A DNA stretch of 32,589 bases from a virus. The notes below the pieces were generated by a model, which worked only from the letters and a program-made list of their open reading frames with translations, made no database searches and was not told the origin of the DNA. Both the position numbers and the translations under genes were made by a program. Positions 311 through 29,500 of the stretch are shown here, one piece after another (the stretch's first letter is position 1; the number at the start of each line of letters is the position of its first letter). The stretch spans positions 1 to 32,589 of IMG/VR virus record IMGVR_UViG_3300022208_000020. One strand, 5' to 3'.

Positions 311-484
311 TTATTGTCCGGCCGCATCCCAGCGGCCGATGCTATCGGAGACCTCCGTGCCAGCCGACTTGATTTCCTCGTCGGTGACAGGGTTCCCGCT
401 CAGCGCGCGCCTCGCCAACTCCAGCATCTTGAACGCCCAGGCGAGGAGCAGCATCCCTTTCTCAAAATCACTCATTTGGCTCAT
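311..484 (-). CDS. Small hypothetical protein (57 aa)
   Basis: A 57-residue protein starting MSQMSDFEKG. The start at 484 is chosen because AGAAAGGAGG lies 8-9 bases upstream, inside the 3' end of the preceding lipoprotein gene; a second ATG at 475 is possible. The first half (MLLLAWAFKMLELARRAL) is an amphipathic or weakly hydrophobic helix, followed by an acidic tail. The gene overlaps the lipoprotein gene by 17 bases, so translation is likely coupled. It matches no family I recognise. An accessory to the neighbouring lipoprotein is possible but only inferred from the overlap. Confidence 0.55.
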   Translation of the reverse strand: MSQMSDFEKGMLLLAWAFKMLELARRALSGNPVTDEEIKSAGTEVSDSIGRWDAAGQ

Positions 485-2662: not shown

Positions 2663-2735
2663 GGGTGACTCCCTTCACTCAGGCCCGGCCGGCGTCACGG
2701 CGTCACCGACCGGGCCATTCGGAAACGCCTGCTCG

Positions 2736-3929: not shown

Positions 3930-3933
3930 AGAG

Positions 3934-4821
3934 TCATTGTCCTTTCTTGAATCGGGGCATCCGGAACTCGGTGGGTTCCACGACGTACCCCTTTCGCGTT
4001 TCGATCTTGTAGGTAAACACGCCCGCCGGGGCCTTCGTGCCGTCCGGCAGGGTCAGGGCCGGATACTGCCCGGCCTCGGCGTCGCCCAGAGCGACGATGA
4101 GATTGTTCATCGCCGCTTCTTTGGCCTTGTCCGCTTCCCGAGCTGTCGTCTGAGCAGCGATGGCGGCGGCCACGACGTCCGGGTCCAGCGGTACGGTCTT
4201 GTCGAGTTGGCGGATGCGGCGCTTCAGGTACTCCGTGTGAGGACTTGAATCTTCCGGCGGCGTGTCTTTCAGGACGTAGCCGTTCCAGAAGGCCAAGACC
4301 TTCTCGATGATAATGTCGCTCAGTTCCCGGCTGTGGCCGATAGTGAACAGGCTAAAGCCCCGTCCGGTGATGAAGGCGGGGACGTGACACACGTCTCGCT
4401 CGCAGGCCCGCGCCTGCGTTATGGCCTGAATCAGGACCCGGTGGGGCACCTCGTCAGTGCCGGACTCGCCCCAATCTTCGGGCACCCAGCCGCCCAAGCC
4501 GGTCGTCTTGCACTCGACCGGTTCGCGACTGGCGAACACCAGGGCGTCACAGTGGACCAAGATCGGCGTGCCCTCAATCCGCCGCTCCGTGCCTCGGCGG
4601 TCGAGTCTCCCCAATTCCTCCTCGGCGTAGGTCAAGACCGCGTCCTCGAAGATTCGCCCGGCCTTCGTCAACTCCGTGTCCTCGCGAGGCTCGACCTTGC
4701 CGGTCTTTTCCAGCCACAGATCGTAGGCGCTCACCCAGGGCGATAGGCCCAGGATCGCCGCCACGTCCGATGCCCCGATGTTCTTTTGCCGCTCCGTGAT
4801 TTGTGTCGCCGTCAGGGTCAT
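3934..4821 (-). CDS. YqaJ-type viral recombinase/exonuclease (295 aa)
   Basis: Lambda-exonuclease-fold nuclease of the YqaJ type, expected to resect dsDNA 5' to 3' and hand single strands to RecT. The diagnostic N-terminus is present (RQKNIGASDVAAILGLSPW, residues 11-29). The metal-binding set is visible: Glu59 in GRIFED, Asp92 in VHCDALV and the ExK pair Glu103/Lys105 in PVECKTT. A helix with a QAITQ-like sequence follows. The start at 4821 overlaps the previous stop as ATGA, and the C-terminal region (residues 220-295) is charged. Upstream in-frame codons are rejected because they overlap the preceding gene. Its place next to RecT supports the assignment. Confidence 0.82.
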   Translation of the reverse strand: MTLTATQITERQKNIGASDVAAILGLSPWVSAYDLWLEKTGKVEPREDTELTKAGRIFEDAVLTYAEEELGRLDRRGTERRIEGTPILVHCDALVFASREPVECKTTGLGGWVPEDWGESGTDEVPHRVLIQAITQARACERDVCHVPAFITGRGFSLFTIGHSRELSDIIIEKVLAFWNGYVLKDTPPEDSSPHTEYLKRRIRQLDKTVPLDPDVVAAAIAAQTTAREADKAKEAAMNNLIVALGDAEAGQYPALTLPDGTKAPAGVFTYKIETRKGYVVEPTEFRMPRFKKGQ

Positions 4822-5180
4822 GGTGTCACCTCGCTTTCTCGTTTCGCTTGGATCGCCGCGTGGACCACATCGAGCAGGCCCCAGGGCCTCGGCACTTTGA
4901 GGCGCGGCCCGCGATGCTTCGGGTCGATATAGATTCGCTGGGTGATCGGGTACAGGTTGTAGCACCACCGAAACATGCCGGAATCGTAGACTCCCGTTCC
5001 ATAGACTCGAAGTTGATAATGGCTGCCAGGAACACATTGATTCAAGACCAACTCGTGCTTCTCGGCGAATGCGAGTCTGCGAGCCATGGGGCAGGTCGCT
5101 ATCGCGCGGAACGCCCGCTGCCCCTTGCGCTGCTCGCGCTTTTCCCTCATTCGGCGGAACATATCGCCCATGTTGCCCAT
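4818..5180 (-). CDS. Hypothetical protein (120 aa)
   Basis: A 120-residue basic protein beginning MGNMGDMFRRMREKREQRKG, with a helical, highly charged N-terminus. The rest looks like mixed alpha/beta sequence with many aromatics (MFRWCYNLYPITQRIYIDPKHRGPRL). No motif is recognised. It is coupled to the exonuclease gene by an ATGA overlap and starts three bases after the previous stop, so it is part of the recombination operon. A nuclease partner role is only a guess from position. Confidence 0.6.
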   Translation of the reverse strand: MGNMGDMFRRMREKREQRKGQRAFRAIATCPMARRLAFAEKHELVLNQCVPGSHYQLRVYGTGVYDSGMFRWCYNLYPITQRIYIDPKHRGPRLKVPRPWGLLDVVHAAIQAKRESEVTP

Positions 5181-5183
5181 TGA

Positions 5184-5612
5184 TTAGCCCGCCTTTCTGC
5201 TGAGCAGTTGCACGCGGATCATCGGCCTGTCGCTCGAGGTGAAGTCCACCTGCATCGCGAGCCCATCCTCAGTCTCGACCTCATGCGGGTTCTCGTTCGG
5301 CCAGTAGCCGTCGCCCATGAGGATGCTGAGGAATCGGTCCTTGATCTCGCCATAGGTCACGCCCCAGTAGTAACGGCAGGTACAATCGTCATCACAAAAC
5401 CGGCCATCCATGTAGCGGCGCACGCTCAGGCATTTGGAGCAGCCGGGACGCCCGCACTGCGCGCAGTGCTCGATCTCCTCGGCCGACACGTCCTCGCCGC
5501 AGGTTGGGCAGGGATTCAACCCGGCGTCAACGGCGATGGCCTCGGCCTTGCGCCCCTCACGATCCTGGTCGTGGCGCTCGCGGTCCAGTTGTCTGTCGAT
5601 CTCGGTTTTCAT
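5184..5612 (-). CDS. Zinc-finger-like Cys-rich protein (142 aa)
   Basis: A 142-residue protein with a basic coiled N-terminus (MKTEIDRQLDRERHDQDREG) followed by paired cysteine knuckles: CPTCGED, CAQCGRPGCSKC and CDDDCTC between about residues 35 and 79. The spacing suggests a two-zinc, treble-clef or RING-like fold. The remaining 60 residues look globular (YWGVTYGEIKDRFLSILMGDGYW). The ATG at 5612 follows GTGAGGA. It matches no family I can name. It lies between the SbcC-like ATPase and the exonuclease, so protein or nucleic-acid binding in recombination is likely but inferred. Confidence 0.6.
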   Translation of the reverse strand: MKTEIDRQLDRERHDQDREGRKAEAIAVDAGLNPCPTCGEDVSAEEIEHCAQCGRPGCSKCLSVRRYMDGRFCDDDCTCRYYWGVTYGEIKDRFLSILMGDGYWPNENPHEVETEDGLAMQVDFTSSDRPMIRVQLLSRKAG

Positions 5613-5621
5613 GGCGTTTCC

Positions 5622-5810
5622 TCACTTTCGCTTGAGTTTCACGCTGGCGGCGCGCGGGGTGTACTCTCGGTGGACGCCCCAATGGATATCGATTTCGTGC
5701 AGTTGACGGCAGCCCGGGCATCGCAACTCAATGTGCGTCTGCACCGGTTCCAAGCCCCGACGCTCGTTGGATCGTCTACATGCGGAACAGAACCAATGCA
5801 ACGTTGCCAT
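5622..5810 (-). CDS. Small zinc-ribbon protein (62 aa)
   Basis: A 62-residue protein with two CxxC knuckles, CSAC (near residue 8) and CPGC (near residue 31), followed by HEID and a basic tail ending KLKRK. The 20-odd residue spacing fits a zinc ribbon. The start at 5810 lies ten bases after the ATPase stop; the ribosome binding site is weak (a GTGAG-like stretch), so coupling to the upstream gene is likely. Small zinc ribbons of this type are common in phage early operons, and their roles are mostly unknown. Confidence 0.55.
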   Translation of the reverse strand: MATLHWFCSACRRSNERRGLEPVQTHIELRCPGCRQLHEIDIHWGVHREYTPRAASVKLKRK

Positions 5811-5819
5811 GTCACTATC

Positions 5820-7013
5820 TCACAATCCGGCTCGAACGCTGCCGTCTTCGATCACGACGCCGATCTTGCCGCTTTCGTCCGTCTGCTCCACCCACAGCTG
5901 ATAGTCTTGCCCGACCGCCATCTGCTCGATCCTCTGCTTTGTCTCCGTGTCGAGGGCGTTCCCGTCGATGAGCATGACGCGGAGGGTCGGGTTCAGGGCC
6001 ATCTGAATGGCCATGCTGATCTCCAGTTGCTTGGCGTGGTTGACCTGCGCCAGGGGGATGCCGTCGTAGGCCACCCCATCGTCCGTGACGGTCAGTCCGT
6101 CCACCGGCATCTTCATCTGGGCCAGGGCCCCCGCCTTGGCCGCCTCCGCCGCCTCCAGGGACTCGTGCGACTCGCGGATCAAGCCCGTACACTGCTCGAC
6201 CAGGGCGGCCACTTCGTCATACCGTCGGTTGGCCCGGACACAGCGGTTATCATCCTCCGCGGTCGCCAGTCGCTGTCGCAGGTCGCTCGGGTCCTGCTGT
6301 GGGGTGTCGGCCAGCGTGTCCTTCGCTTGGGCGATCTTCTTCTCCAGGCTGACCAGTTCGGCCAGGAGATCCCGCTGCTTGGCAACCATAGCATCCAGGG
6401 ATGCCGTGAGTTGTCCGCGTGTGGTGTTGTGCGCATCGACCCGCCGCAACTGTTCGGCGATCTCGGCGACGGAGACCTCCTCGGCTGGCGCATCCGGGTA
6501 CTTCCTCAGTTGCGCCAGTTCGTCACTACGACGTTTCTTCTCCGCGAGCAGCTCGGCGCGGTACGACCGGCACTTTTCGATCTCGGCGTCATGCGCGCCC
6601 AGGTCCACACCGAGCAGCTCGATCAATATCTGCCGCTGCTGCTTCTCCGTCTGGCGGATGAAGGCCAGGGGATCAAAGGCGATGTCGCCGACGAATGTGT
6701 TAAGCAGCGCCTGTGGGGAAGACACCTTGTAGCCCTGCGCGGTAGTGACCTCCAGGTGGGAGCCCGCGCCGGTGAACTGGCGAGTGATGACGTACTTCTC
6801 CGTCTCCAAGACGACGACGGCCTTCGTCTCCCCGTCGCGGATCGGCTTCTTCGGGGACGCCGCCTTGCCGCCGAGCGCGGCGGGAATCGCGTCCAGGACG
6901 CAGGACTTGCCCGCGCCGTTCTTGCCCGTGATCGTAACGACGTGGCCGTCCGGCTTGATCTCGACCGCGACCAGTCGCTTGAAATTGCTTGCCGTGAGTC
7001 GAATGATCTTCAT
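5820..7013 (-). CDS. SbcC/RecF-like AAA ATPase (397 aa)
   Basis: SMC/RecF-type ATPase in a compact phage form. Walker A is GKNGAGKS at residues 30-37 after a start typical of the class (MKIIRLTASNFKRLVAVEI). Residues about 130-300 are a heptad-rich, charged coiled coil. The C-terminus carries a signature-like helix (NHAKQLEISMAIQMALNP) and a Walker-B-like LRVMLIDG near 344-351, where glycine follows the aspartate as in related phage ATPases. It probably acts with the exonuclease and RecT in end processing. The start at 7013 follows AAAGGAG; the in-frame ATG at 7031 sits on that ribosome binding site and is rejected. Confidence 0.8.
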   Translation of the reverse strand: MKIIRLTASNFKRLVAVEIKPDGHVVTITGKNGAGKSCVLDAIPAALGGKAASPKKPIRDGETKAVVVLETEKYVITRQFTGAGSHLEVTTAQGYKVSSPQALLNTFVGDIAFDPLAFIRQTEKQQRQILIELLGVDLGAHDAEIEKCRSYRAELLAEKKRRSDELAQLRKYPDAPAEEVSVAEIAEQLRRVDAHNTTRGQLTASLDAMVAKQRDLLAELVSLEKKIAQAKDTLADTPQQDPSDLRQRLATAEDDNRCVRANRRYDEVAALVEQCTGLIRESHESLEAAEAAKAGALAQMKMPVDGLTVTDDGVAYDGIPLAQVNHAKQLEISMAIQMALNPTLRVMLIDGNALDTETKQRIEQMAVGQDYQLWVEQTDESGKIGVVIEDGSVRAGL

Positions 7014-7100
7014 GGTTATGGCTCCTTTCAAGCCCTGCCGGGGCCGGCCAGAGTGCCCGGCGCGGGCGAGAACCGGCCCCGACGTGCAGGGTCAAGTCGC

Positions 7101-7360
7101 TTAGGTGCTCATCGCCTCGGTCATTGCCTGCCGGTATGCGGCCTCAGCCTCCTCCAACTGAACCCTCAGATGGTCCTCAAGGAGCGCGCACACCAATCGC
7201 CAGATGTACTCCGGCAAACCAGAGAACCCCTTGTTGGTGCACTTGAAAAAATCGTGTCCCCGCTCGGGGAGAGATTCTGGATCGCCTTGCGAAAACTCGA
7301 TTGTTCCTCTTTCGCACGTTCGACCTTACTTGCTGCGGATCGTACCTTCTCTGTTTCCAT
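7101..7360 (-). pseudogene. Small gene, probably read through a frameshift at an A6/T6 run
   Basis: An ATG at 7360 with GAAAGGG upstream opens a frame beginning METEKVRSAASKVERAKEEQ, a charged helix, which by itself ends at 7166. A different frame, with no start codon of its own, is open from 7325 to a stop at 7101. It reads well as protein (FKCTNKGFSGLPEYIWRLVC, then a helix ending EAMST). The two join if one base is added in the A-run at 7246-7251 (T on the coding strand), giving an 86-residue protein. Either the sequence has a homopolymer error, the gene is broken, or slippage makes the product. Function unknown; it is the first gene of the leftward early operon. Confidence 0.45.
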
Positions 7361-7684: not shown

Positions 7685-7711
7685 TCACAGGTTCGAGTCC
7701 TGTACCGCCCA
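7661..7711 (+). other. attP-like tRNA-Val(TAC) 3' fragment
   Basis: The 3' portion of a tRNA gene. It has a loop TTTACAC (7670-7676; anticodon TAC at 7672-7674), 3' anticodon stem GCAGA, variable GGGTC and a complete T-arm (ACAGG, TTCGAGT, CCTGT at 7687-7703). The 3' acceptor strand ACCGCCC and discriminator A end at 7711. The 5' half (acceptor strand, D-arm) is absent, and the 5' anticodon stem has two extra bases (TG) relative to a pairing TCTGC, so this is not a working tRNA. The integrase reading frame ends inside it (…QDSNL). This is the classic structure of a phage attP whose core restores the host tRNA 3' end. Confidence 0.75.
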
Positions 7712-8746
7712 ATCCGGCCTTTGATGTTCGAGTCCTGGGCCGCGTCGCTGGGCGGTAACGTACTGTGGCCGCAACAGTTGCACGCGGCCAGGGCCTTTCT
7801 TCAAGACGTTCGCGACCGTCTCATACGCGACTTGCCAATGTGAGCCTCTTACAGCCGTGTACGGGTCTAATGTCTCCCGCCTCGCATGGCCCGTCAGTGT
7901 CATCAGGGCCTTGTCCGGCAGAACCTCGGCGAGTGCGGTCGTGTACGTGCGGCGGAACTGATGCCAGTCGCCGATTTGCTGGCCGAAGGCCCGAGTCTGA
8001 ATGCCGACGAAGATCCGCCTAAAATTCAACTCAGGCAGTTTCCGCCACGGCGCCCAATCGTCGGCGGGTCGGCCCGCCTTCTGCCAGCGTAGCAGCTTCT
8101 CGACCATCGACGGTGCAACGAGTGGATACGTTCGTCCCCGAAAATACTCAAGCACATCGGCGAACTGGGGAGCCAGGGGGACGCGCCGGATCTCGCGATC
8201 CTTCGGCTCCCACTCCCAAGTGTCGTCGCTCTTGGCCTTCGGCTCGACCCAGACCATGCCGCCGCGAATGTTGGCGGCCGTCAGGTTGAGCAAAGCCCCG
8301 CGCCGCAGGCCCGTCGTCCTGGCCCCCCACAACAGGCCGAGCCAGCGGACGTCCCGGTCGGGATCGTTCGCCGTCGGCCTCGGCAGGCAGTGCAGCATCC
8401 GCTCGAATTGCCAGTCCTCGTAGATGGTCACGGGCTTTCGCGTGACGCGGAACTGCTTGACGCCCGCCAGCGGATTCGCCGGTAGGCGGTCCGTCTCGAC
8501 CGCCCAATTCAGCAACGCCTGGATCGACCGGACGTAGATGTTCGCGGTGTTCTTGTTGCGGCCGGTCTCGACCAAGTGGTTTCGGTAGCCGTCCCCGAGT
8601 TGGGGGGACAGTTCCTCGATCGCGGGCGAACCCGCCCACCGACCGAACAAGACGCACGCACGCCGAGCCGTCAGCCGGGTGCTGTGTGCCAATACAAATC
8701 GCTGCTCGCGGCAGTAGTCCGCGCACAGCGTGCTCAGTGTCGCCAT
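7685..8746 (-). CDS. int: Tyrosine recombinase/phage integrase (353 aa)
   Basis: Site-specific tyrosine integrase. An N-terminal SAM-like, core-binding domain covers about residues 1-90 (SIQALLNWAVETDRLPANPL) and the catalytic domain follows. Catalytic residues are visible: the first Arg in TTGLRRGALLNL (148), a Lys in the VEPKAK hairpin (about 170-172), HQFR (His262, Arg265), the GH of LTGHARRE (His287) and Tyr296 in DPYTAV. The last residues WAVQDSNL are encoded by the tRNA-Val-like attachment sequence. The start at 8746 follows AAAGGAGG; an upstream ATG at 8788 has no such site. It should integrate the phage into a host tRNA-Val gene. Confidence 0.9.
   Translation of the reverse strand: MATLSTLCADYCREQRFVLAHSTRLTARRACVLFGRWAGSPAIEELSPQLGDGYRNHLVETGRNKNTANIYVRSIQALLNWAVETDRLPANPLAGVKQFRVTRKPVTIYEDWQFERMLHCLPRPTANDPDRDVRWLGLLWGARTTGLRRGALLNLTAANIRGGMVWVEPKAKSDDTWEWEPKDREIRRVPLAPQFADVLEYFRGRTYPLVAPSMVEKLLRWQKAGRPADDWAPWRKLPELNFRRIFVGIQTRAFGQQIGDWHQFRRTYTTALAEVLPDKALMTLTGHARRETLDPYTAVRGSHWQVAYETVANVLKKGPGRVQLLRPQYVTAQRRGPGLEHQRPDWAVQDSNL
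7691..7737 (+). repeat. Direct repeat GTTCGAGTCCTG at the att site
   Basis: The 12-mer GTTCGAGTCCTG (T-loop and 3' T-stem of the tRNA-like core) occurs at 7691-7702 and again at 7726-7737, 35 bases apart on the same strand. Both copies lie inside the integrase 3' coding end, which therefore ends in related peptides. The second copy lacks the rest of a tRNA. Confidence 0.6.
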
Positions 8747-10945: not shown

Positions 10946-11473
10946 ATGAAGAATCTGCTGTTTTGCCTCATGTTGTGTGCGGCGGGGGGCTGCACAGGCT
11001 ATCACGCCCGAGACTGGACCGGCGGGTATACGGAGACCTGGCTGCGAAAGGATGCCCTGGTGGTCCGCTTCTACGGCAATGGGTACACCTCAATGGAGCA
11101 AGCCGAAGAGATGGCCCTGCTCCGCGCGGCCGAGTTGGCGCTCTTGCATCGCTACGACAATATCGCGATCATGGCGGGCAGCTCCTACATCGATGTGGCG
11201 CAGTGGACCACGGGCGGGGATTACTGCCAGACCCAGGGCACCGTTTACATGCCATCGAGCGGACAGGGCTACGTGGACCTGAGAAGTCAGTACGTCGAGC
11301 CGACCACGATCACCTACCGCAGGCCGTGCTCCCTCGTGGCGGTCCGCTGCTTTGATGAGCGCCCTGACGACATCCCGGACAATGCGCCGGTTCTGTCTTC
11401 ATGGTTCATCTTCGAGTCCCTGGCGCACAAGTATAGGGTGGAACGGCTCTTAGCCGCCTCGGACCGCCAGTAG
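10946..11473 (+). CDS. CC0125/CC1285-family-like lipoprotein (175 aa)
   Basis: Predicted lipoprotein: MKNLLFCLMLCAAGGCTGYH has a short hydrophobic core and a lipobox ending at Cys16. The mature domain carries the pattern of the CC0125/CC1285 family: a GGYTETWL segment, VVRFYGNGYTSMEQAEEMALLRAAELAL in outline, then a strand with AIMAGSS. The family is bacterial and uncharacterised, with YxxxGYTS-like cores. The start follows GGGAGGG. It is on the opposite strand to the late genes with its own promoter, the mark of a lysogenic-conversion gene. Its 3' end converges with the holin-like gene, overlapping by 24 bases. Confidence 0.7.
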   Translation: MKNLLFCLMLCAAGGCTGYHARDWTGGYTETWLRKDALVVRFYGNGYTSMEQAEEMALLRAAELALLHRYDNIAIMAGSSYIDVAQWTTGGDYCQTQGTVYMPSSGQGYVDLRSQYVEPTTITYRRPCSLVAVRCFDERPDDIPDNAPVLSSWFIFESLAHKYRVERLLAASDRQ

Positions 11474-19843: not shown

Positions 19844-21436
19844 TCACCGGTCTCCGTCGAAATCGAACTCGAACACCACGCCGATCACGGCGAACGGCGA
19901 ATCGCTCTCCAGTTTGAGGCAGCAGTGACGAAACCGGGCGTCGAAGGGCACCCACCGAACGATCTCGGTGCCGTCACCGTCCGGGGTCAGGGCCACGTTC
20001 TTGAGGAAGCGATAGGAAGCCTTGGCGGCGGTCCGAATCGAAACGCTCACCATGTCACTCGCGGCGCCGGGCGCCAGGAACAGCCAGAGTCCGTGCGCCC
20101 GCTTGAACTCGGTCACGGCCCCGGAGTTCGCCAGATCCGTCGCCAGGGCGAGTCGCCCGGTATAGGCGACGCCCTTGTCCTTCGTGTCGGCGAGGCAACT
20201 GTACCCGTACCCCGCGTAGTCGCTCGCGATCAGGAGCGGATAGCCCAGCCCGCCGCCGGCGTGGTCGATGGTCGGCCAGGCGATCGTGTCGATGGTGGGG
20301 AAGGGGATCGTGTCGATCGTGTAGGCGCTCTGCGTCGTGTAGGCCCCGAAGGCGGCCACGTCCATGGGCGCGGTGTTCCAGAATCCCGTCTGGCGGTCGA
20401 GCATGAGGATCAGGTCATTGCCGGTCGAATCGAGGTTCTGGGGTACGGACCACCAGAGATGGTCGAGACCGGGGACATAGACGGCGCGGCTCTCCGACAA
20501 TTTGTCCGGGTGGAGGCCCCGCACCGTCTGGGCAATATCGGCGCTCGCCGGGCCGGAGGCGAACAGTTGCCGGATCGTCTGGTCCGTGGCCAGGAACCAC
20601 AGATTGCCGCTCGGCTCGGTGACGATACTGTCGGGGGCCGGGCAGCCGATCCCTTGGATGATGGTCTCACTGTTCCAGACGGTCACATCCTCGGTGAGCC
20701 ACATCATGTCGATCAACTTCTGCGTGAAGGTAATCACGCGCGTCGCGCCGCCGACGCTGTAGATCCCGCACGCGGAAATGACGTTGTTGGCTTCCAGGTC
20801 ATTGTAGCCCGCGTCGCCGCTCTTCGTATCGCTGGAGTCCCAGTCGGTCAGGTCGCCCCAGGAGCACCAGCGGCGCCGGTTGGGCTTGTAGGTCCCTGCG
20901 TCCGTGGTGCCCATCAGGATCAGGTAGCTCTCCGCCTCGATCAGATAGTTGGCCTTGACGCACCAGTTCGAGTCGCCGATGTCCAGGCCGTTCGTGGGGT
21001 CCCCGAGTACGGAGAACGGGTCCGTCGGCGCGGTGTCCAGCCATTTGATGACCTTGTCGATCTGGTTCGTCGCCACGATGTACGGGCCGCAATCGGCGGT
21101 GCTCCAGTGGGTGCAGGAGGTCGAGCAGGTCCAGGCGGTCACCCAGGCCCCTCCCCCGGCATTCCAGCGGTAGGCATGGTCCTTCGTGAAGGCGAAGAGG
21201 GTCTCCTCGCCGGTGTTCCGAACGTGCTTATGCCAGTGGATGATGGGGTTCGCATCCGGCGTCTGGACGGGCGAGCCGCCGGACAGGAAGGCGGGCATCC
21301 GCCCCGGAATCCGGCGCATCGCCCCCTCGCGGTAGGCCATCCACTGACTCTCCGCCAGCGCGTAGGCGGCGGGCAGCTTGATATGCGGGAATCCGACCCG
21401 CTGACCGAGAACGTCATTGACAATCCCGAACTTCAT
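19844..21436 (-). CDS. Tail stabilisation protein, gp10-like by position (530 aa)
   Basis: A 530-residue, beta-rich protein starting MKFGIVNDVLGQRVGFPHIK. It has many Trp and Asp-Gly turns, with repeated blade-like segments (for example WTCSTSCTHWSTADCGPYIV and LFASGPASADIAQTV), consistent with a beta-propeller-like tail hub. Its place after the adaptor protein matches P22 gp10/packaged-DNA stabilisation proteins. The start at 21436 is two bases after the previous stop (TAAGCATG). The same frame stays open for more than 400 codons upstream, but that part reads antisense-like and overlaps two well-supported genes, so it is rejected. Confidence 0.6.
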   Translation of the reverse strand: MKFGIVNDVLGQRVGFPHIKLPAAYALAESQWMAYREGAMRRIPGRMPAFLSGGSPVQTPDANPIIHWHKHVRNTGEETLFAFTKDHAYRWNAGGGAWVTAWTCSTSCTHWSTADCGPYIVATNQIDKVIKWLDTAPTDPFSVLGDPTNGLDIGDSNWCVKANYLIEAESYLILMGTTDAGTYKPNRRRWCSWGDLTDWDSSDTKSGDAGYNDLEANNVISACGIYSVGGATRVITFTQKLIDMMWLTEDVTVWNSETIIQGIGCPAPDSIVTEPSGNLWFLATDQTIRQLFASGPASADIAQTVRGLHPDKLSESRAVYVPGLDHLWWSVPQNLDSTGNDLILMLDRQTGFWNTAPMDVAAFGAYTTQSAYTIDTIPFPTIDTIAWPTIDHAGGGLGYPLLIASDYAGYGYSCLADTKDKGVAYTGRLALATDLANSGAVTEFKRAHGLWLFLAPGAASDMVSVSIRTAAKASYRFLKNVALTPDGDGTEIVRWVPFDARFRHCCLKLESDSPFAVIGVVFEFDFDGDR

Positions 21437-21438
21437 GC

Positions 21439-22335
21439 TTAAATCCCCGCGTCGATGCGGAGTGCGATAATCCTCAAATACCCGGTAGTCTTCTGCTGCT
21501 GCTGGGCGTTCTTGTCGTAGTAAAAGGCGAGGGCAGTCCCAGTGCGATGGGTCAGATTGGTCGCGTCCATGTCCACAACGGGGCTTGCAGACCAGCCGCC
21601 CGCACCAAACAACTGCTGGGAGATAGACACGTAATCGCCGCTGCCGTCCGATGTGTCGCTGTAGTAGACCTGGACGAACGTCGGCACGCCCGAAAGGCCG
21701 TGGGCTTTGACGTAGCTCGTGCCAACCGCGGCCGCGAACCAGCCGGAGTCGTACTTCTCGATGTGCAGGCCATCCACGCGGTCCACGTTCAGGTTGCTCA
21801 CCTTCGTGGTCGAGGTCACGATCATCGGGGTGTTGCCGTCCCCGATCTGGGAATAGAGCACTTGAGCCTTGAGGTTGTCGGAGAAGGTCTTGTCGCCGGC
21901 AAACGTCTGGTCGCCCGTCTTGACCAAGGCGCCGTCCTCGTCGGTCAGTTTCAGGGCCAAGCCGCTGCCGGTCGTCAGTTGGCGCTCGGTCCCCGCGTCG
22001 GACTCCAGCCAGATCGCCTCGTTGCTGTCCGTCAGTTTGGTGTAGAGCGCCAGTTGGCCGTCTGTCAGGGTCGGCTTCGTGCCGAGCACTTCCTGGAAGG
22101 TGACCTTGCGGTGCTTGCCCGCGTCCGCGTCCGAGACCTGGGAGCCGGCGAGCGGCCAGTAGTGATCGACGTTCTGACGCTCCTGGACGCCCAGCTTGAC
22201 CTCGCGAATCCGGTCGTCGATGATGGTCGGCGAGTCGGTGCCCGCCGGCGTCGTCGTGTCGTAGGTCGCGGTCCAGGCGATGATGAGCGCCGTCATCAGG
22301 CCCGCGATGAAGGCGCAGAGAAGGGTCTTTTTCAT
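21439..22335 (-). CDS. Signal-peptide-bearing tail-fibre-like protein (298 aa)
   Basis: A 298-residue protein. MKKTLLCAFIAGLMTALIIAW is a signal peptide or anchor. The mature part starts with TPAGTDSPTIIDDRIREVK, a recurrent phage tail-fibre entry, followed by repeats of polar beta structure with the NLNVDRVDGLH motif (about residue 174) typical of fibre shafts. The C-terminus forms a beta-rich head (WSASPVVDMDATNLTHRTG). It lies between the adaptor and the gp10-like gene. A secretion signal on a fibre-like protein is unexpected; see findings. Confidence 0.6.
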   Translation of the reverse strand: MKKTLLCAFIAGLMTALIIAWTATYDTTTPAGTDSPTIIDDRIREVKLGVQERQNVDHYWPLAGSQVSDADAGKHRKVTFQEVLGTKPTLTDGQLALYTKLTDSNEAIWLESDAGTERQLTTGSGLALKLTDEDGALVKTGDQTFAGDKTFSDNLKAQVLYSQIGDGNTPMIVTSTTKVSNLNVDRVDGLHIEKYDSGWFAAAVGTSYVKAHGLSGVPTFVQVYYSDTSDGSGDYVSISQQLFGAGGWSASPVVDMDATNLTHRTGTALAFYYDKNAQQQQKTTGYLRIIALRIDAGI

Positions 22336-22341
22336 AGTTCG

Positions 22342-22956
22342 TCACTCCTGTATGGCCGGTTCCTGTAGCATGAGGGCCCGGCGTTTGTCTTTCTCCTGGT
22401 TGTATCGGGCGCCCCAGAGGGCGATGTATCGGTCCAGGCCGTAGGTCGAGGCGACCTCGAGCGCGGCCCCGAAGAGGATGGCCCGCCGCCAGTCGTCGGA
22501 AAATTCCAGGTTCGTGCCGATCGCCCCGTGCCGACGCCAGTAGTGAATCCAGGCGATCCAGTCGGAGCTGGGGCGCGGGGCGAGAAGGAGTTGCCATTGG
22601 TCGAGCGCCGTCTGCATGGGCCAGTACATTTCCGGCGTCGAGCGGGTCGGATTGCCCTCGAAGAAGCGGTTGTGATCCTTGGCGCCGCCCGGCCAGGGCC
22701 TGAGCAGCGGCCCCCACACCCCGGCCGGGGACCGGAGTTGGATCGAGATGATCGCCTCTTCCGTGTGCAGGGCGTCGGTCGGATAGACGAGGTAGCTGCT
22801 CGTGCTGGTCAGGGTCTGCGAGCTATCGACGCCGCGCAGGCAGTGGAGGTCGGCGAGGTCATCGACCACGTTGCGAAGCTCGACGTCGATCTCCGTCTCC
22901 TCGCGATGGAGGACCTTGTTCACGAACGTCAGGATTTCCGCCTTGGTGATGCTCAT
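22342..22956 (-). CDS. Head-tail adaptor, gp4-like by position (204 aa)
   Basis: A 204-residue protein without a signal peptide: MSITKAEILTFVNKVLHREE, then VDDLADLHCLRGVDSS, a beta segment (AIISIQLRSPAG) and helical C-terminal sequence (RRAILFGAALEVASTYGLDR) ending in a charged tail. Helix-strand-helix proteins of about 160-200 residues between capsid and tail genes are usually head-tail connectors, such as P22 gp4 tail accessory factor. The start at 22956 overlaps the previous stop as ATGA. Assignment is from size, fold pattern and position. Confidence 0.5.
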   Translation of the reverse strand: MSITKAEILTFVNKVLHREETEIDVELRNVVDDLADLHCLRGVDSSQTLTSTSSYLVYPTDALHTEEAIISIQLRSPAGVWGPLLRPWPGGAKDHNRFFEGNPTRSTPEMYWPMQTALDQWQLLLAPRPSSDWIAWIHYWRRHGAIGTNLEFSDDWRRAILFGAALEVASTYGLDRYIALWGARYNQEKDKRRALMLQEPAIQE

Positions 22957-24389
22957 AGCGCCATCGCTCCCATGATGAGGCTCAGGTAATCGAAGGGGCT
23001 CGGACTCAGCTCGTAGGTGCTCGTGGCGTCCGGGATGACGTCCCATTTGCCGATGATGTCGGCCTTTTTCGTCGTGGGATTGTACTGCCTCACGACGCGG
23101 AACTGGCGAATCCCGGTGCCGCCCGTGATATGGCAGATCGCCCCCTTGAAATTCAGGGTCGTCTCGCCGGCGGCCAGGGTGATGGAGGTAGAGGTACCAC
23201 CCTGCGCCGTGCCGGAGGCGAGCGGGGTCAGGCCGGTGCCACTGCCCGTGAGCCAGGCGGCGTCGCCCCGGTCCCGAATGTCTTCCAGTTGGTCGGTGGT
23301 CTCGGAGAAGGTGGGGCCCTTGATCGAGGTCAGGTGACTGATGATCGTCGTCTGGTTCGCCGCGGTGGCGTCCCCGCCCGTGCCGGACGGGGCCTGCTCC
23401 AGGGCGTTGGTCGTATAGCGACTGACCCCGGCGTCGGACTCGACCAGTTCATTGAACAGGGCGTCGGCGGCCCCCGGCTTGGCGGCCGGATCGTAGGTCG
23501 TCTTGAAGAGATGGTCCAGGTGATTGGCGACGAGGGCGTCGTCAACCTCGGACTCGACCTGGGCATCCCACGCGGCGTTCCAGGCGAGGGCCGTGAGGCT
23601 CGCGCCGGCCGCGCCGATGCGCGCGAAGGAATCGCCCGTCTGGGCCGTATGGCCGGTCAGAGTCGTCACAGTCCCGATGGTGACGGCCGATTGATCTGCG
23701 GCGAGCGAGTAGCCCGTCTTGTCGGAGACGGTGGAGGCCGTGTAGCCCGTCTTGTCGTTGTTCGTGCCCACGGTGACGGCGCCGCTGCTCAGAGAGACCT
23801 GCCCGGTGCCCGTGCCTGGGGAGACTTTGCTGTAGCCGCTGGCGTCCGTCTGGAGACTCGTACCGCCGCCGGAGAGCTTCACAAGCTGGGCGCTGTCGGA
23901 GACGTCGACCAGCCGGACGTTGAAAACGCCGTTCGGCTCGTTGAACGCGGTCGCATAGTCCGTGTTGTAGACGTTGTTCAGGTTCGTCACGGGCGTGGCG
24001 GACCCGGCCAGTTGGGTGACGTTGGCGCTGACCACGGCGGGGCTCGTAGCGATGGTGATGGGTCGCAGGTAGACGGTGCTCGTGGTCGTCTTGGCGGAGA
24101 AGAACAGGACCTCCCCGTTCATCTCGCCGGCCGTCGTGTCGAACACGTAGCAGCCGGCGGCGTTCGTGGCGCTGGCCTCCGTCGCGCTCGTATCGGTCAG
24201 GGCCGTCACAGAGCCGCCGTCGATGGAGACGTAGGCGGTGATGTTCGCCGCGTCCCCCGTCTTGGGGGCGTTCGCCGTCGTGTCCCAGGCGTAGAAGCGG
24301 ACCTTCGAGGCCGTGTTCTTGACGTAGGCCGCCGGCAGAAAACCGCAGCAAGTTAGGACGATGAATAGGATGGTGAGGAGACGCTTCAT
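22953..24389 (-). CDS. Exported repeat-rich virion/fibre protein (478 aa)
   Basis: A 478-residue protein with a clear signal peptide (MKRLLTILFIVLTCCGFLPA, cleavage near AAYVK). The mature N-terminus is a beta sandwich (KVRFYAWDTTANAPKTGDAA, then NITAYVSIDGGSVTALTDT). A Thr/Ser/Gly-rich central part carries phage fibre-type DKTGY repeats (NNDKTGYTA, VSDKTGYSLA, about residues 197-220), and the C-terminal part has a receptor-tip-like beta domain. The ATG at 24389 overlaps the preceding stop as ATGA; ten extra upstream codons lack a ribosome binding site. Fibre or decoration protein is likely. Confidence 0.6.
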   Translation of the reverse strand: MKRLLTILFIVLTCCGFLPAAYVKNTASKVRFYAWDTTANAPKTGDAANITAYVSIDGGSVTALTDTSATEASATNAAGCYVFDTTAGEMNGEVLFFSAKTTTSTVYLRPITIATSPAVVSANVTQLAGSATPVTNLNNVYNTDYATAFNEPNGVFNVRLVDVSDSAQLVKLSGGGTSLQTDASGYSKVSPGTGTGQVSLSSGAVTVGTNNDKTGYTASTVSDKTGYSLAADQSAVTIGTVTTLTGHTAQTGDSFARIGAAGASLTALAWNAAWDAQVESEVDDALVANHLDHLFKTTYDPAAKPGAADALFNELVESDAGVSRYTTNALEQAPSGTGGDATAANQTTIISHLTSIKGPTFSETTDQLEDIRDRGDAAWLTGSGTGLTPLASGTAQGGTSTSITLAAGETTLNFKGAICHITGGTGIRQFRVVRQYNPTTKKADIIGKWDVIPDATSTYELSPSPFDYLSLIMGAMAL

Positions 24390-25009
24390 GGTAGGATGAC
24401 CTCCGATTCCACGACCCATTCTGGGGGCGGGGCGACTGCACTCTCTTCATATTCGTAAGTGAACTTGGCCCAGGCCAGGGCCCAGTTGATTCCGTCGGCT
24501 CCACCGGTCTTGACAGAGCAGTAGAGCCGGAACTGTAACCCATTCAGAAAGGTGGTCTTGTTCGAGGCGGCCGCGTACTTCGTAGCCATCGCCGACGTGT
24601 AATCTTCCGTGGTCAGGACATCCGGGAGAAGATTGGCGCTGTTGAAGGTTTCGAGGGTCTCCCAGACCGTCGTGTCGGGATTGTAGACCTGGAGAAGGTA
24701 GGTATCGTTGGCGTGCTCGTTGTTGATCTCTCGGTGCCTCACGGCGAAGGCGGTCAGCACGCCATCGGCGGCAGGAACCTGGGTGATGTTGGCGAAGTTC
24801 CCGCCGGCGTAGGTCCCCGCAACTCCAAAGTTCGTAGAGTCGGCCTCGCTGTCGTCTTCCGTACAGGCGTTGGTGGCATTGTTCCAGGTGATCCCATTAA
24901 CGACGTCGAGGGTGTCAGGCAAGCGAGATTCTGTCTCATAGGGACCTTCGCCAGAGAGAGGCCCGGCCCAGACGGCGAGGATGATCAAGATGCTCACGAA
25001 TCGTTTCAT
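24386..25009 (-). CDS. Exported protein in the virion cluster (207 aa)
   Basis: A 207-residue protein with a signal peptide (MKRFVSILIILAVWAGPLSG, cleavage before EGPY). The mature part is beta-rich and polar (WNNATNACTEDDSEADSTNF, then VLTAFAVRHREINNEHANDT), resembling a jelly-roll or lectin-like domain by composition only. It is coupled on both sides by ATGA overlaps. No family is recognised. Its position implies a virion surface or fibre-associated role. Confidence 0.6.
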   Translation of the reverse strand: MKRFVSILIILAVWAGPLSGEGPYETESRLPDTLDVVNGITWNNATNACTEDDSEADSTNFGVAGTYAGGNFANITQVPAADGVLTAFAVRHREINNEHANDTYLLQVYNPDTTVWETLETFNSANLLPDVLTTEDYTSAMATKYAAASNKTTFLNGLQFRLYCSVKTGGADGINWALAWAKFTYEYEESAVAPPPEWVVESEVILP

Positions 25010-25722
25010 GGGCGAGTCCCCATGACCGGTTCATCGGGCTCCCGGACCCAGGGCGCCGGATACGCCGCGGCGGCGGCGCCGCTCAGGTCGAGGTCGTGGA
25101 GTTGCCAATGGACGTTGCCGGAGCCGCCGGTCATTACGTTATAGGCGTGACAATACTCGAACGTCGTGCTGACGCAAGTCAGGTTCACCGTCCCAACCAG
25201 GGTGCTTTCATAGCCGCCCGTCCAGATCGTCAGGGTGGCGGTCGTTCCGGACCGCGAGAACTGCCAGTAGTAGTTTGTCGAGAGCGAGTTGATGGTAATG
25301 TCCGTGCTGTAGGTGGCTGTGCCGCCGCTGACGTTGGCGATCTGCGCTGTGTTGAGGTAGCTGCCATCGGTGCGGTAACGCACCCAGAGGCTGTCGCCCG
25401 AGGACGTGATGTTGTTCCAGTAGTCTGCCGAGGCGGCCAATCCCGTTCGGCACTCGGTCCAAGTGCTGGATTCCGCGTCGGCCGACCCGTACCAGCGCCA
25501 GGCGAAGTTGCCAAAGTAGCCGGACCCGAAGCTCTTGACGTGGTAGGCCCCGGCGCTCTCCGTCACCGCGGATTCATCCAAGAGGGAGTTCGTGTAGACC
25601 CCGAGGTTGCCGTTCGTATCGACGTGGGTCCAGCCCGAGGTGAACGTCTGGAGCGTGCCCCAGGCCCAGAGGACCGAGGCCGAAAGCAGCAGGAGCAGGA
25701 AGATGGCGCAGATTCGTTTCAT
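25006..25722 (-). CDS. Exported jelly-roll-like protein in the virion cluster (238 aa)
   Basis: A 238-residue protein with a signal peptide (MKRICAIFLLLLLSASVLWA, cleavage before WGT). The mature domain has the look of a concanavalin/LamG-type jelly roll (VKSFGSGYFGNFAWRWYGSA, then TYSTDITINSLSTNYYWQFS, and FEYCHAYNVMTGG), i.e. a possible glycan-binding module. The C-terminus is Pro-rich (PAPWVREPDEPVMG). It overlaps its downstream neighbour by ATGA and starts two bases from the previous stop. A receptor-binding or adhesin role is inferred. Confidence 0.6.
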   Translation of the reverse strand: MKRICAIFLLLLLSASVLWAWGTLQTFTSGWTHVDTNGNLGVYTNSLLDESAVTESAGAYHVKSFGSGYFGNFAWRWYGSADAESSTWTECRTGLAASADYWNNITSSGDSLWVRYRTDGSYLNTAQIANVSGGTATYSTDITINSLSTNYYWQFSRSGTTATLTIWTGGYESTLVGTVNLTCVSTTFEYCHAYNVMTGGSGNVHWQLHDLDLSGAAAAAYPAPWVREPDEPVMGTRP

Positions 25723-25723
25723 A

Positions 25724-27514
25724 TCAGGGACCGCCTCTCAGCAGCAGGTACGTTGTGGATTCCCCGAGGTCCAACTCGTCGAATCCGAGATCCGGCGTGG
25801 CGTCGCGACTCTGCGCCTCGAAGTCGGTGCTCGTATAGTCGCCGGAGACCGCCGAGCCGGCGTCGATGGCGGGCGAGCCGGCGACCAGCTTGAACGCGGC
25901 GTTCTGGTTGACGGCCCCGCCGGAAACGAGGGTCGTATCGAAGTCGGGGCCGCAGACGAAGTAGGGCGTCGTCGCGGTGGACTCGAAGATCGTGCCGTCC
26001 CAGGGCGTGGTGTAGTCGCAGTAGACGGTGCAATCGTTCACGTCGTCCATGATGCAGCTACTCCAGTTGCACCACATCGTATTGTTGTAGATCCGGCCGC
26101 CGGGGATGTAGAAGTTGCCCACGACGAGGTTGTTCGTCACGCTCCAGGTGTCTCGCAGGTTCGTCCCCGCTCTGCCCGATGCCGCGAGCGCCAGGCCGTA
26201 CCGATACCGGACGTTCGCCGGATAGTTCTGGTGCCGCCGGCTGGCGATGGTGTTGTTGCGAATGATGAGGTTGTCGCCGACGGGATACCCGCTGAAGTCG
26301 ATGCTGTAGTTGGACTGATTCCCAGGAGCGTACAGCAGGTTATTCTCGATCTTGATGTCCGTCGTGCTCGTGCCATAGCTGTAGATCATGCCGGTGCCGC
26401 CCGTGTTGTGGATGCGACAGTTGCGCACCGTGATCGGGCGGTGGATGCCAATTGCCACCGTATGCGTGTCGTCGTGGAACTTGCAGACATCATCAACGTC
26501 GATGGCCCAGGGGAAAACCGTCGAGACGGTGACTCGCCATGTGCTGCTGCCCATGTCCTCGAACGCGCTGATGGGGCGCATGGTGGATTGGGCGTCGTGC
26601 TCGATGGTGACGTACTTGTTGCCGCCGCTGGGATAGGAGCCGACGTAGTAGAACTGCGCGTTCGTGGGCGAGCCCTGCTGCGAGACGGAATCGGTCAGGG
26701 CGATCTGAGAGGCGCAGACCGTAATCGTCTTCTCCAGGTGCAGGCCGTCGAGAATGAAATCGTCCCAGGTGCCGCTGCTCGGCACGGCGGAGAACCAGAC
26801 GCACCAGCGATAGATGTCCCGGAAATGGCAGTTCTTGATGAGGACGTTCGCGTGGACCTGGCCGAGGCATAACGCACCCTTGGAGAAGAACTGGCCGTAG
26901 ACGTTCTCGAAGAGGAGATTCTTGTAACGGCCGGCGTCGGAGTTGTACATGCTAATACAGTGCTGGGTGGGTTCGTTGTCGTAGAACCACGGATCGGTCG
27001 CGGGCACATAGCCCCAGCACATGCAGTTTTTCACGGTGACATCGGCGACGGAGCCAGCGGACAGGTCGATCGCGCCGCCCTGCAAGCCGTAGGAGCCGGT
27101 GCAGATGACCGCGAAGCCCTCCACCACCAGGTATTGCGAGGTCGGGGTGTCGCCGCCGAGGCTCTGGAAGGTGATCTTGGGCGTTACGGCGTGCGTGCTG
27201 CCGGTGACTTTCTCAATGGAACCCTCATACCACCCGGCGGTCATCCCGCCGCACGTCCCCGGATCAGCCTTGTAGGTAATGGGGCTGCCGCTGGACCCCA
27301 GGCTCAGCGGGGCCATCGCCGCGTAGTCGCCCGGCTGGTACAGAAAGATGTCGCCCGGACTCGCGTCGTTGTCTTCGGCCTCCGCCTGGGTCATGCAGTT
27401 GGACCGGTCGGAGCCGGAGAGGTTCCCGCCGCCGCTCGGACTGACGTAGTACGTGGCCGCCGGCAGGGGAGCCGCCGCCAGGAGGATCAGCAGGCTTAGG
27501 ATCGCTCGATGCAC
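25724..27514 (-). CDS. Exported right-handed beta-helix protein, tailspike-like (596 aa)
   Basis: A 596-residue protein with a signal peptide (MHRAILSLLILLAAAPLPA, cleavage before ATYYV). The mature part opens with TYYVSPSGGGNLSG, the usual entry of pectate-lyase-like beta-helix proteins. It continues with repeated rungs carrying N-ladders and aromatic stacks (IKNCHFRDIYRWCVWF, ITVRNCRIHNTGGTGM, LIIRNNTIASRR). Such folds form tailspikes that bind or cut surface polysaccharides, or secreted glycosidases. No catalytic acid pair could be assigned. It lies within the late operon, so a depolymerase or adhesin in the virion is the favoured reading. Confidence 0.7.
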   Translation of the reverse strand: MHRAILSLLILLAAAPLPAATYYVSPSGGGNLSGSDRSNCMTQAEAEDNDASPGDIFLYQPGDYAAMAPLSLGSSGSPITYKADPGTCGGMTAGWYEGSIEKVTGSTHAVTPKITFQSLGGDTPTSQYLVVEGFAVICTGSYGLQGGAIDLSAGSVADVTVKNCMCWGYVPATDPWFYDNEPTQHCISMYNSDAGRYKNLLFENVYGQFFSKGALCLGQVHANVLIKNCHFRDIYRWCVWFSAVPSSGTWDDFILDGLHLEKTITVCASQIALTDSVSQQGSPTNAQFYYVGSYPSGGNKYVTIEHDAQSTMRPISAFEDMGSSTWRVTVSTVFPWAIDVDDVCKFHDDTHTVAIGIHRPITVRNCRIHNTGGTGMIYSYGTSTTDIKIENNLLYAPGNQSNYSIDFSGYPVGDNLIIRNNTIASRRHQNYPANVRYRYGLALAASGRAGTNLRDTWSVTNNLVVGNFYIPGGRIYNNTMWCNWSSCIMDDVNDCTVYCDYTTPWDGTIFESTATTPYFVCGPDFDTTLVSGGAVNQNAAFKLVAGSPAIDAGSAVSGDYTSTDFEAQSRDATPDLGFDELDLGESTTYLLLRGGP

Positions 27515-27515
27515 G

Positions 27516-28169
27516 TCAGGGCCTCCCGGTCAATAGGGCGTACAGCTTCGTGATGTTGCTCTTGTTGTCGAACAGGATGAAGGCGTGGGTCGCGCCGGCC
27601 GGCTTGAAGGTGATCTCGCCAATCCCGTTCGGTTCGCCCGTCGCACTGACGGGCCCCCGCCAGCAGTCGGCGGTCGTATGGATCGTCATCGGTCCTTCGG
27701 CCCACTTGCGGTTCGGGTCGGCGATCTGACTGGGGCGGTAGGCGGAGCCCCAGCCGGCGGCCGGATCGTGGGACAACTCCAAATCCCCGATCGCGCCCGA
27801 GAGGGCGCAGACCCGCGCCGCGGAGCCAAACTCGGTCACGACGTACAGGTTGGCGTCGAAGGTCCCCGCGTTCGGATCGCCTTCGCCGGTCCCGTCTCCG
27901 TAGGCGTAGATGCTCACGGACACGGAGCCGAGCGACCACTCCTCCGGGATGGCAATGGCGTCGTTCACGTCGTACCAGGAACTGGTCGAGGGCGTCAGCG
28001 GTGTATCGTCCGCACTGACGCCGTTGGGGCGCAAATGCTTGTAGTAGTGGGGCAGACGGTAGCTGACGGGCTGATAGCCCCCGCCCGCCTGCTCGGCGAT
28101 CCACAGGCCGAGCCCGAGCGTCAGGGTGGCGGCCGCCAGCATCCACAAGATACTTCGTTCTCGATTCAT
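27516..28169 (-). CDS. N-terminally anchored beta-rich protein (217 aa)
   Basis: A 217-residue protein: MNRERSILWMLAAATLTLGLGLWIA is a membrane anchor or uncleaved signal. It is followed by beta-rich sequence (VSVSIYAYGDGTGEGDPNAG, then NLYVVTEFGSAARVCAL) and a C-terminal ITFKPAGATHAFILFDN segment. The ATG at 28169 follows AAGGAG. It is the first gene after the capsid gene and a strong hairpin, and opens the run of exported proteins. No family is recognised. Confidence 0.6.
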   Translation of the reverse strand: MNRERSILWMLAAATLTLGLGLWIAEQAGGGYQPVSYRLPHYYKHLRPNGVSADDTPLTPSTSSWYDVNDAIAIPEEWSLGSVSVSIYAYGDGTGEGDPNAGTFDANLYVVTEFGSAARVCALSGAIGDLELSHDPAAGWGSAYRPSQIADPNRKWAEGPMTIHTTADCWRGPVSATGEPNGIGEITFKPAGATHAFILFDNKSNITKLYALLTGRP

Positions 28170-28206
28170 GGATCAGGTCTCCTTCGTCCTCAACTCTCGG
28201 CGTGGA

Positions 28207-28233
28207 GGGGCGCGGCCGAAAGGCGCGCGCCCC
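28207..28233 (-). other. GC-rich hairpin after the capsid gene
   Basis: GGGGCGCG plus GCC (28207-28217) pairs with GGC and CGCGCCCC (28222-28233, one bulged base) around a four-base loop. On the minus strand no U-run follows, so it may be an attenuator or an mRNA end that lifts capsid message over downstream genes, rather than a full terminator. Confidence 0.5.
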
Positions 28234-28261
28234 ATCCCCGCCAGAAGCAGGACCGCAAAAG

Positions 28262-29500
28262 TTAGGTCGGGATGACCTCGGTGTCGATGCAGTAGATCCC
28301 TTCATCTTCGCCCGGCGTGCTCGTGCCGTGCGCGTTGAAGATCGTCCGCTTCAACCCGTAGATCATGTCCACAATCACTCGGGGAATCCGGCCGTCGTAC
28401 CAGTCCTCGTGCCATTGGAGCATCTGAGCCCAGGCGAAACAGATCGCCTGCGCGCCCAGGAACATCGCTCGGCAGACGCTGCGCGTGTTCGCACAGGCGT
28501 CTGACGTCTCCGTTCGACCGGCATTGAGGAGGAACCCTTCCGCGAGGGTCACTCCGCCCGCCCCGGTCCGCATGGGCACTCGGTCGTACTCCATCACGAC
28601 ACAGCCGTTCCAGCTCACGGCGCCCGCCGCGAAGATGGGGTGCTTGTCGCCCCGAGCGGCGCAGGCCGCCACCATCTGGTTCCACCCGATGTTGCCCACT
28701 TCGGACCGCATCGAGTTGATCTGGTAGGGGTGAGCGAGCACCGTATACATCTGCGCGATGAGTTTCTGCGCCATTCGGTTCCGCTGGTCGAGCGAGCCGT
28801 CCGCGGAGCGGGGGGTTTGATAGAACTTGCCCAGCCGGAATCGCGGAGAGGCCGAGAGGGCCTTGGCCCGGACCGCGTTGATGACCAGCGTGCCGAACAG
28901 GTTGTTCGCCGGCGTGCCCGCCGTCAGGAGCGCGTCCGTGGCGTAGGTTGGCCCGAGCGCCGGGGTGGCGCCGATGTTCTGGCCGCCGTACCGGATACGG
29001 TTCGTGGTCGGGTAGCTCTCGTTGATGGTCTCGATGGCCGCGCCGCTGGAGTTCTCGTTGTACAGTCCGGCGGCACAGTTCACCAAGTCCTTCTCCCATG
29101 CCTCTTGGCTCCAGATCCCCAGCTTGCGCTTGGCGAACGACCGGAAGCCGGCGGTCTTGTGGATGTCCGTGCGCTGCATGGTCATCTTGCCGGCCGGTCG
29201 CGTCCCCTGCGCCCGCTCGTGGACCTCAACCTTCATGTTGCGCCGTCGCAGGGCCACTTCGTTGCCTTCGGTGGTTCCGTCGTCGCCCTGGCCGGGGTCG
29301 TTCGTGTCGTTCTCGTCGGCGCTGAACGTGATCGTGTCGCCGGGTTCGACGGTCAGGTCCTTCTTGGTGTAGATGATACTCTCCGGCGTGTTGCCCATCA
29401 GCGGCAGGAGCGCCATGTTCTGGAGGGCAAACGCCATCGTCCCCTTCGACCAGATTTTATGAGTCAAGGGGTCATTACTTGCAAACGTCGTGTTCGCCAT
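28262..29500 (-). CDS. Major capsid protein, DUF4043/N4-gp56-like (412 aa)
   Basis: A 412-residue protein whose sequence pattern matches phage capsid proteins of the DUF4043/N4-gp56 group: MANTTFASNDPLTHKIWSKG, then IIYTKKDLTVEPGDTITFSA, an acidic loop (DENDTNDPGQGDD), and RRRNMKVEVHERAQGTRPAGKMTMQRT in outline. A helix then carries KRKLGIWSQEAWEKD. These proteins adopt HK97-like folds. The ATG at 29500 follows GAGGTG. It directly follows the scaffold gene, as expected. No protease signature is seen, and the length is usual. Confidence 0.75.
   Translation of the reverse strand: MANTTFASNDPLTHKIWSKGTMAFALQNMALLPLMGNTPESIIYTKKDLTVEPGDTITFSADENDTNDPGQGDDGTTEGNEVALRRRNMKVEVHERAQGTRPAGKMTMQRTDIHKTAGFRSFAKRKLGIWSQEAWEKDLVNCAAGLYNENSSGAAIETINESYPTTNRIRYGGQNIGATPALGPTYATDALLTAGTPANNLFGTLVINAVRAKALSASPRFRLGKFYQTPRSADGSLDQRNRMAQKLIAQMYTVLAHPYQINSMRSEVGNIGWNQMVAACAARGDKHPIFAAGAVSWNGCVVMEYDRVPMRTGAGGVTLAEGFLLNAGRTETSDACANTRSVCRAMFLGAQAICFAWAQMLQWHEDWYDGRIPRVIVDMIYGLKRTIFNAHGTSTPGEDEGIYCIDTEVIPT

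Follow-up and report, generated by a model that had tools for sequence, protein, structure and literature searches.

The present analysis confirmed that the six minus-strand genes at 21439-28169 encode fibre-like proteins with N-terminal export signals and belong to a late operon of podovirus type on that strand of the window (the whole 32,589-base stretch analysed, an IMG/VR virus record). Judged from the sequences, export of these cassette proteins is very probable, and there may be an even chance that such phages send fibre, receptor-binding and glycan-active proteins via the host Sec pathway, with docking onto the particle outside the cytoplasm. An earlier note on this DNA had left two options, namely secretion of proteins active at the surface, or passage of virion parts through the envelope. 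As the signals are conserved, are present on nearly all fibre-like genes but on none of the core virion genes, are absent from homologs that begin at the mature start, and are found on a tailspike-like protein of another podophage, G302, the second option is favoured for these virion-type proteins, while the first, free action outside the cell, stays as the main rival.

The minus-strand gene order is portal, scaffold, capsid, the cassette genes for the 217-, 596-, 238-, 207- and 478-aa proteins, the adaptor-position gene, the 298-aa gene, the gp10-like gene and the ejection proteins (Table 1). The capsid family and the gp10-like protein (PF13252, phrog_334, phrog_3287) correspond to a P22-like head-tail module. 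The gp4-type adaptor is assigned by position alone; the adaptor profile picks up no adaptor of Pseudanabaena phage Pan3, the ortholog in contig L021 matches phrog_399 at E 0.019, and close relatives of the gene were not found in viral contigs. The order of portal, scaffold, capsid, adaptor, gp10-like and ejection proteins is comparable with that of Pan3, a Phage_capsid_3 podophage, although in Pan3 the capsid gene is followed directly by the adaptor gene and a signal-less tailspike comes after the ejection genes, whereas the window clade has one to five signal genes inserted between capsid and adaptor. The description of the cassette junctions as ATGA overlaps was accurate for three of them (4 nt each), but gaps of 1 nt occur at 25722/25724 and 27514/27516 and one of 6 nt at 22335/22342. 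As a sign of a moron or lysogenic conversion, a minus-strand promoter or terminator was sought by a consensus scan of low sensitivity, and none was found. A strong RNA hairpin without a T-run (28165-28275, minus strand, z -3.4) lies between the capsid gene and the first cassette gene and may tune expression downstream of the capsid gene.

Table 1. Coordinates, N-termini and supporting scores of the features discussed; a slash marks the predicted cleavage site.
Feature	Coordinates	Strand	N-terminus	Signal score and other evidence
Major capsid protein (Phage_capsid_3)	28262..29500	-		PF13252 E 8.6e-35, phrog_334 E 1.4e-48; reference point for genome comparison
217-aa protein, first after capsid gene	27516..28169	-	signal-anchor or weak signal peptide, MNRERSILWMLAAATLTLGLGLWIAEQ	8.1
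596-aa right-handed beta-helix, GTG start	25724..27514	-	signal peptide, MHRAILSLLILLAAAPLPA/ATYY	9.6
238-aa protein	25006..25722	-	signal peptide, MKRICAIFLLLLLSASVLWA/W	11.0
207-aa protein	24386..25009	-	signal peptide, MKRFVSILIILAVWAGPLSG/EG	11.2
478-aa protein, Ig-like N-terminal domain common in phages, repeats	22953..24389	-	signal peptide	10.1
Adaptor-position protein (gp4-like by position)	22342..22956	-	without signal	1.0
298-aa TYDTxTPAGTD fibre-type protein	21439..22335	-	signal-anchor	9.1; orthologs with and without signal
gp10-like tail protein	19844..21436	-	without signal	4.5; phrog_3287 E 2.6e-17
Tyrosine integrase	7685..8746	-		80% identical to G302 integrase
G302 tailspike-like protein, 881 aa	L140:3463-6108		MKNKKSKMRTVWWISLACLAALLLGFGIRAWA/VVPTTSDLVSYPCNGTST...	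11.6

Concerning the gene starts, all six are genuine open frames preceded by a Shine-Dalgarno-like site, the strength of which varies (weak for the 207-aa gene), and the GC3 of the first codons (0.70-0.90) is near the value of the remaining gene. Signals were evaluated by a home-made scorer of charge, h-region and AxA site. In its calibration with 49 kb of E. coli K-12 sequence, a threshold of 8 split all Sec/Tat-exported from all cytosolic genes; some false positives do occur (e.g. L130 5001 at 9.0). Scores below threshold for most of the proteins, the outcome named beforehand as refuting the pattern, did not occur, since all six exceeded 8 with this home-made scorer. The capsid, scaffold, portal, gp10 and ejection proteins scored below 5, and exactly the six genes named in the earlier note were marked and no other virion gene, the adaptor between them included. 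Whole-protein shuffles matched the real scores in 0-22 of 2000 trials (0-1.1%), and outside the virion module equally high scores were reached only by lipoprotein-like genes and a few mechanical ORFs. The 478-, 207-, 238- and 596-aa proteins look cleavable by inspection and have the features of Sec/signal-peptidase I substrates (charged n-region, h-region and small-x-small site), whereas the 298- and 217-aa proteins are more anchor-like. In the six proteins there was neither an RR motif nor a good lipobox, no C-terminal anchor or sorting tail was obvious, and no Pfam/PHROG match to an endolysin, spanin or holin domain was obtained. Cysteine enrichment, considered as a motive for export into an oxidising compartment, was not seen (0.69% vs 0.73%).

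The individual proteins are of several kinds. The 217-aa protein has an ortholog in L002 that is 64% identical in the mature part, with a diverged but hydrophobic N-terminus. The 596-aa protein matches Beta_helix at E 1.1e-4, under the gathering cut-off, and carries a choice-of-anchor Q domain near the C-terminus (NF041518, 25.3 bits against a cut-off of 25). Homologs of the 238-aa protein are encoded at L002 10894-11637 (50%) and in the C-terminal half of a 488-aa G302 protein (53%); for the 207-aa protein no family match in the Pfam/PHROG searches was convincing. The mature N-terminal domain of the 478-aa protein (residues 22-125) is a confident Ig-like sandwich (AF2 pLDDT 94) whose viral Foldseek neighbours include BppU-N and minor tail proteins; against solved structures, the sequence search gave weak hits only and Foldseek PDB gave general Ig folds, none with E <0.001. 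This Ig-like fold with BppU-N-like neighbours was the only docking-like feature, and no Pfam/PHROG match to a docking domain of cultured tailspikes was found in the window proteins.

Comparison with capsid relatives (31-75% identity to the window capsid) demonstrated that the pattern is not a quirk of one contig, since the search for the same gene order in other phages revealed a signal on the first fibre-like gene 3' of the capsid gene in about 20 relatives, of textbook quality in L002-L010, L013-L016 and L021. Furthermore, a search with the A1 family ('YHEVQFVDETG') yielded 14 further loci, each directly after a capsid gene and each with a signal. Across the clade and with start sites corrected, 44 of 48 cassette genes carried a signal and none of the 67 core virion genes did; before correction, the cassette count was 41 of 48 (Fisher p 3e-24), a p-value that overstates independence because the counted genomes are related. 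Gene starts in the relatives were taken from a home-made script and several records are fragments; several cassette genes seemingly without a signal proved to be wrong start calls. At a capsid identity of 31%, L019 has the adaptor directly after the capsid with no gene between, and no signal-bearing gene lies between capsid and adaptor in four cultured podophages of the same capsid family. Signal-less and signal-bearing neighbours are mixed in L130, L131 and L128.

In the A3 fibre family, the signal was found in 22 of 22 aligned members, and mean identity was 30% in the signal region vs 54% in the mature N-terminal domain, indicating that the signal character was kept while its letters changed. 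These data bear on the possibility that host secreted proteins were captured and their signals are relics without a role in the phage, as the resemblance of the beta-helix and LamG members to bacterial secreted proteins might suggest. However, retention in every A3 member despite diverged letters, together with the occurrence of signals on phage-type domains that are signal-less in their other homologs, makes relics a disfavoured and most improbable explanation. The AF2 model of the A3 fibre was of low confidence (pLDDT 56), and its Foldseek matches were set aside. The A1 fibre gene of L032 (2693-4703) is broken into two reading frames of 364 and 302 aa, and the near-identical L030 and L031 copies are unsplit.

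The signals are modular in their placement, since the signal-less relatives in four families begin at the predicted mature start. At least 123 IMG/VR relatives exist for the 478-aa protein; among those with a visible N-terminus, seven carry a signal and most others start at the mature N-terminus. For instance, the signal-less L115 protein starts with MRIASGVTDQYIYFVAVDATDFATRETGLSSFTVY, corresponding to the mature N-terminus in L045 (...APASA/HRMVSGTTDEYVYFVAVDATDYKTRETGLSSFTVY), and the same holds for L110 vs L075. Similarly, the third cassette protein of L021 begins with MKPKQILILLTVFCLACSG/MQYLKQSTAATVKLGPFVD, and its signal-less counterpart in the cultured Microcystis phage Mvi-Yong1342-1 starts with MTIYLKQSTASQEV; in the L021 gene, only the outer ATG is preceded by a ribosome site, and that site is strong. 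Eight genomes encode the TYDTxTPAGTD protein with a signal or anchor and six encode it without either (L006, L015, L021, L036, L039 and L043), a patchy distribution on the capsid tree that requires at least four to five changes, and an ordinary cytoplasmic fibre is therefore possible in those six. In appearance, the Ig-like, TYDT and tailspike members are phage proteins to which a signal was added, and those of beta-helix and LamG type resemble secreted proteins captured from bacteria.

Based on these alignments, it is improbable that the hydrophobic N-termini serve cytoplasmically made virion proteins as helices for assembly or membrane insertion, for example aiding DNA ejection, rather than as export signals. 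The 298- and 217-aa proteins and several TYDT N-termini do look like uncleaved anchors, but most members have a charged n-region, an h-region and an AxA site as in exported E. coli proteins, and the homologs without the segment start at the predicted cleavage site.

The clearest case linking a signal to a receptor-binding protein was found in G302, the record behind L045, a 41-kb podophage of 67% GC whose capsid similarity to the window is undetectable. Its cassette proteins are 33-53% identical to those of the window and 41-56% to those of L002. As cassette and integrase are common to the window and G302 and the capsids show no detectable similarity, the cassette moves as a module, and a common host pool is suggested; the window integrase likewise points to a temperate life style and to a host pool in common with G302. 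The 881-aa G302 protein is encoded after the ejection genes, the tailspike or tail fibre place in Pan3 and in Pelagibacter podophages. From residue 34 it has an N-terminal docking domain (phrog_1640 positions 3-109, residues 34-144, E 1.4e-18; also phrog_13893), followed by a pectate-lyase-like beta-helix body (PF12708 E 2.5e-8), and the GC3 of its signal codons (0.88) compares with 0.86 elsewhere in the gene.

In docking domain, beta-helix body and position, the G302 protein is like podophage tailspikes such as Burkholderia phage BcepC6B gp18, the Escherichia phage PAS61 tailspike and Cobetia phage Carin1 Dpo31, the last annotated as structurally validated, but it differs from them by a 31-32-residue Sec signal ahead of the docking domain. 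In the docking-domain alignment, which took in five phage homologs, the start codons of BcepC6B, PAS61, Carin1 Dpo31 and HTVC035P align with approximately residue 31-33 of the G302 protein. This signal-bearing tailspike-like protein stands alone as an example, and G302 is a different phage from that of the window. Nearly all large fibre-like genes of G302, G298, G299 and G301 bear a signal, the last three genomes being near-complete; some of these genomes have no other, signal-less fibre gene, and another tailspike-like gene was not found in G302. Given these docking domains and the lack of alternatives in these four genomes, the exported set probably, with modest confidence, includes the receptor-binding proteins of the particle.

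The main rival is that export takes place but the proteins work apart from the particle: as free depolymerases or lectins, they would loosen the host's coat or biofilm to help release, or they would be decoys, or surface proteins of use to the lysogen or in blocking superinfection. Members of beta-helix, LamG and GH43-like type occur in the cassettes, the choice-of-anchor Q domain is typical of secreted bacterial proteins, and an L130 neighbour combines a signal with dockerin-like, Ig and LamG domains, all of which would suit such a role. On the other hand, docking-type N-terminal domains are kept after the signal, the genes lie inside the head-tail operon directly 3' of the capsid gene, and no other tailspike-like gene was found in G302; off-particle action has, in our estimation, clearly less than an even chance.

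Among known systems, pIII of filamentous phage is a receptor-binding virion protein with a Sec signal, and its assembly takes place at the membrane; the cassette shares the Sec signal and probably a receptor-binding role, but pIII is not from a tailed phage. In the literature, which was covered in part, signal peptides on tail fibres were represented only by method mentions, lysis enzymes and gp40 of Xanthomonas phage PBR31; within that coverage, no published precedent was found, in agreement with the suggestion that the system is undescribed. The secreted/SAR endolysin Lys44 of Oenococcus phage fOg44 passes through host Sec during infection (PMC6116005); it is Sec-directed like the cassette proteins, but it is a lysis enzyme, whereas these are fibre-like with no lysis-enzyme domain found. 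PBR31 gp40 is a signal-bearing esterase similar to tail-associated hydrolases that is described alongside the spanins and interpreted as helping lysis (PMC10975493), a reading in favour of off-particle action; it shares a signal on a tail-hydrolase-like protein with the cassette, but is a single gene.

For the preferred reading, in which virion parts cross the envelope, we tentatively propose, at a little short of an even chance, a two-compartment assembly. Portal, capsid, adaptor, gp10 and ejection proteins would be made in the cytoplasm without signals, forming heads and tail cores there, and the late-operon cassette proteins would pass the host Sec translocon rather than remain in the cytoplasm. 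Most of the exported fibres would lose the signal at the AxA site, two would stay anchored, and folding would occur on the envelope side. The fibres would dock onto the particles at lysis or shortly afterwards, via their N-terminal domains, the same as those found in signal-less phages. P22 heads accept tailspikes in vitro, and docking outside the cytoplasm is therefore plausible.

Tailed-phage fibres are taught as cytoplasmic products, and a clade with Sec signals on nearly its whole fibre set, and on the apparent sole tailspike of one relative, would revise this, altering views of virion assembly, premature adsorption and phage-encoded secretion. The combination of signal peptide and docking domain offers a sequence criterion for wider searching, and the cassette may be a source of naturally exported glycan-active proteins.

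Concerning the hosts, L021 (with L027 and L028; JAQUQK010000003.1) is an integrase-bearing phage, circular by a 126-bp end overlap with NAA/YAA repeats spanning the ends. No large fibre gene was found outside its cassette, and its TYDT protein is signal-less. An archaeal host suggested by its Thermoplasmatota bin was rejected, as a scan of 293 Thermoplasmatota genomes showed the capsid profile in no further one; the contig is probably misbinned. An extra DNA match in this bin lies away from tRNA and reads as coding similarity. In L130 (3388-5004) and L131 (1365-2981), a protein with signal peptide, dockerin-like, Big_9 and LamG domains is encoded directly before a signal-less phage Ig-like protein, and the dockerin-like and LamG companions in L130 give a hint of Planctomycetota as host.

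Several further genes of the relatives were observed. The L075 phage differs in its head genes and has a tail-sheath-like gene; at 2489-7281, N-terminal signals or anchors occur on a gene run beside its head-tail connectors, so that the trait may extend beyond podophages. Between the adaptor and TYDT genes, short holin-like proteins (SKTI.GI... motif) are encoded in L041 (13761-14045), L035 (13057-13317), L037 (12559-12792) and L008 (11938-12177). The window has two small lipoprotein-like genes, at 468-791 (minus strand, LPGC box) and at 10946-11473 (plus strand, AGGC box), the latter adjoining the ejection genes on the opposite strand. Short lipoprotein-like genes also lie near the portal gene in many relatives (L008 3088-3399, L006 2534-2797, L042 6240-6524 and L021 7746-8159) and may represent another exported item of the head module.
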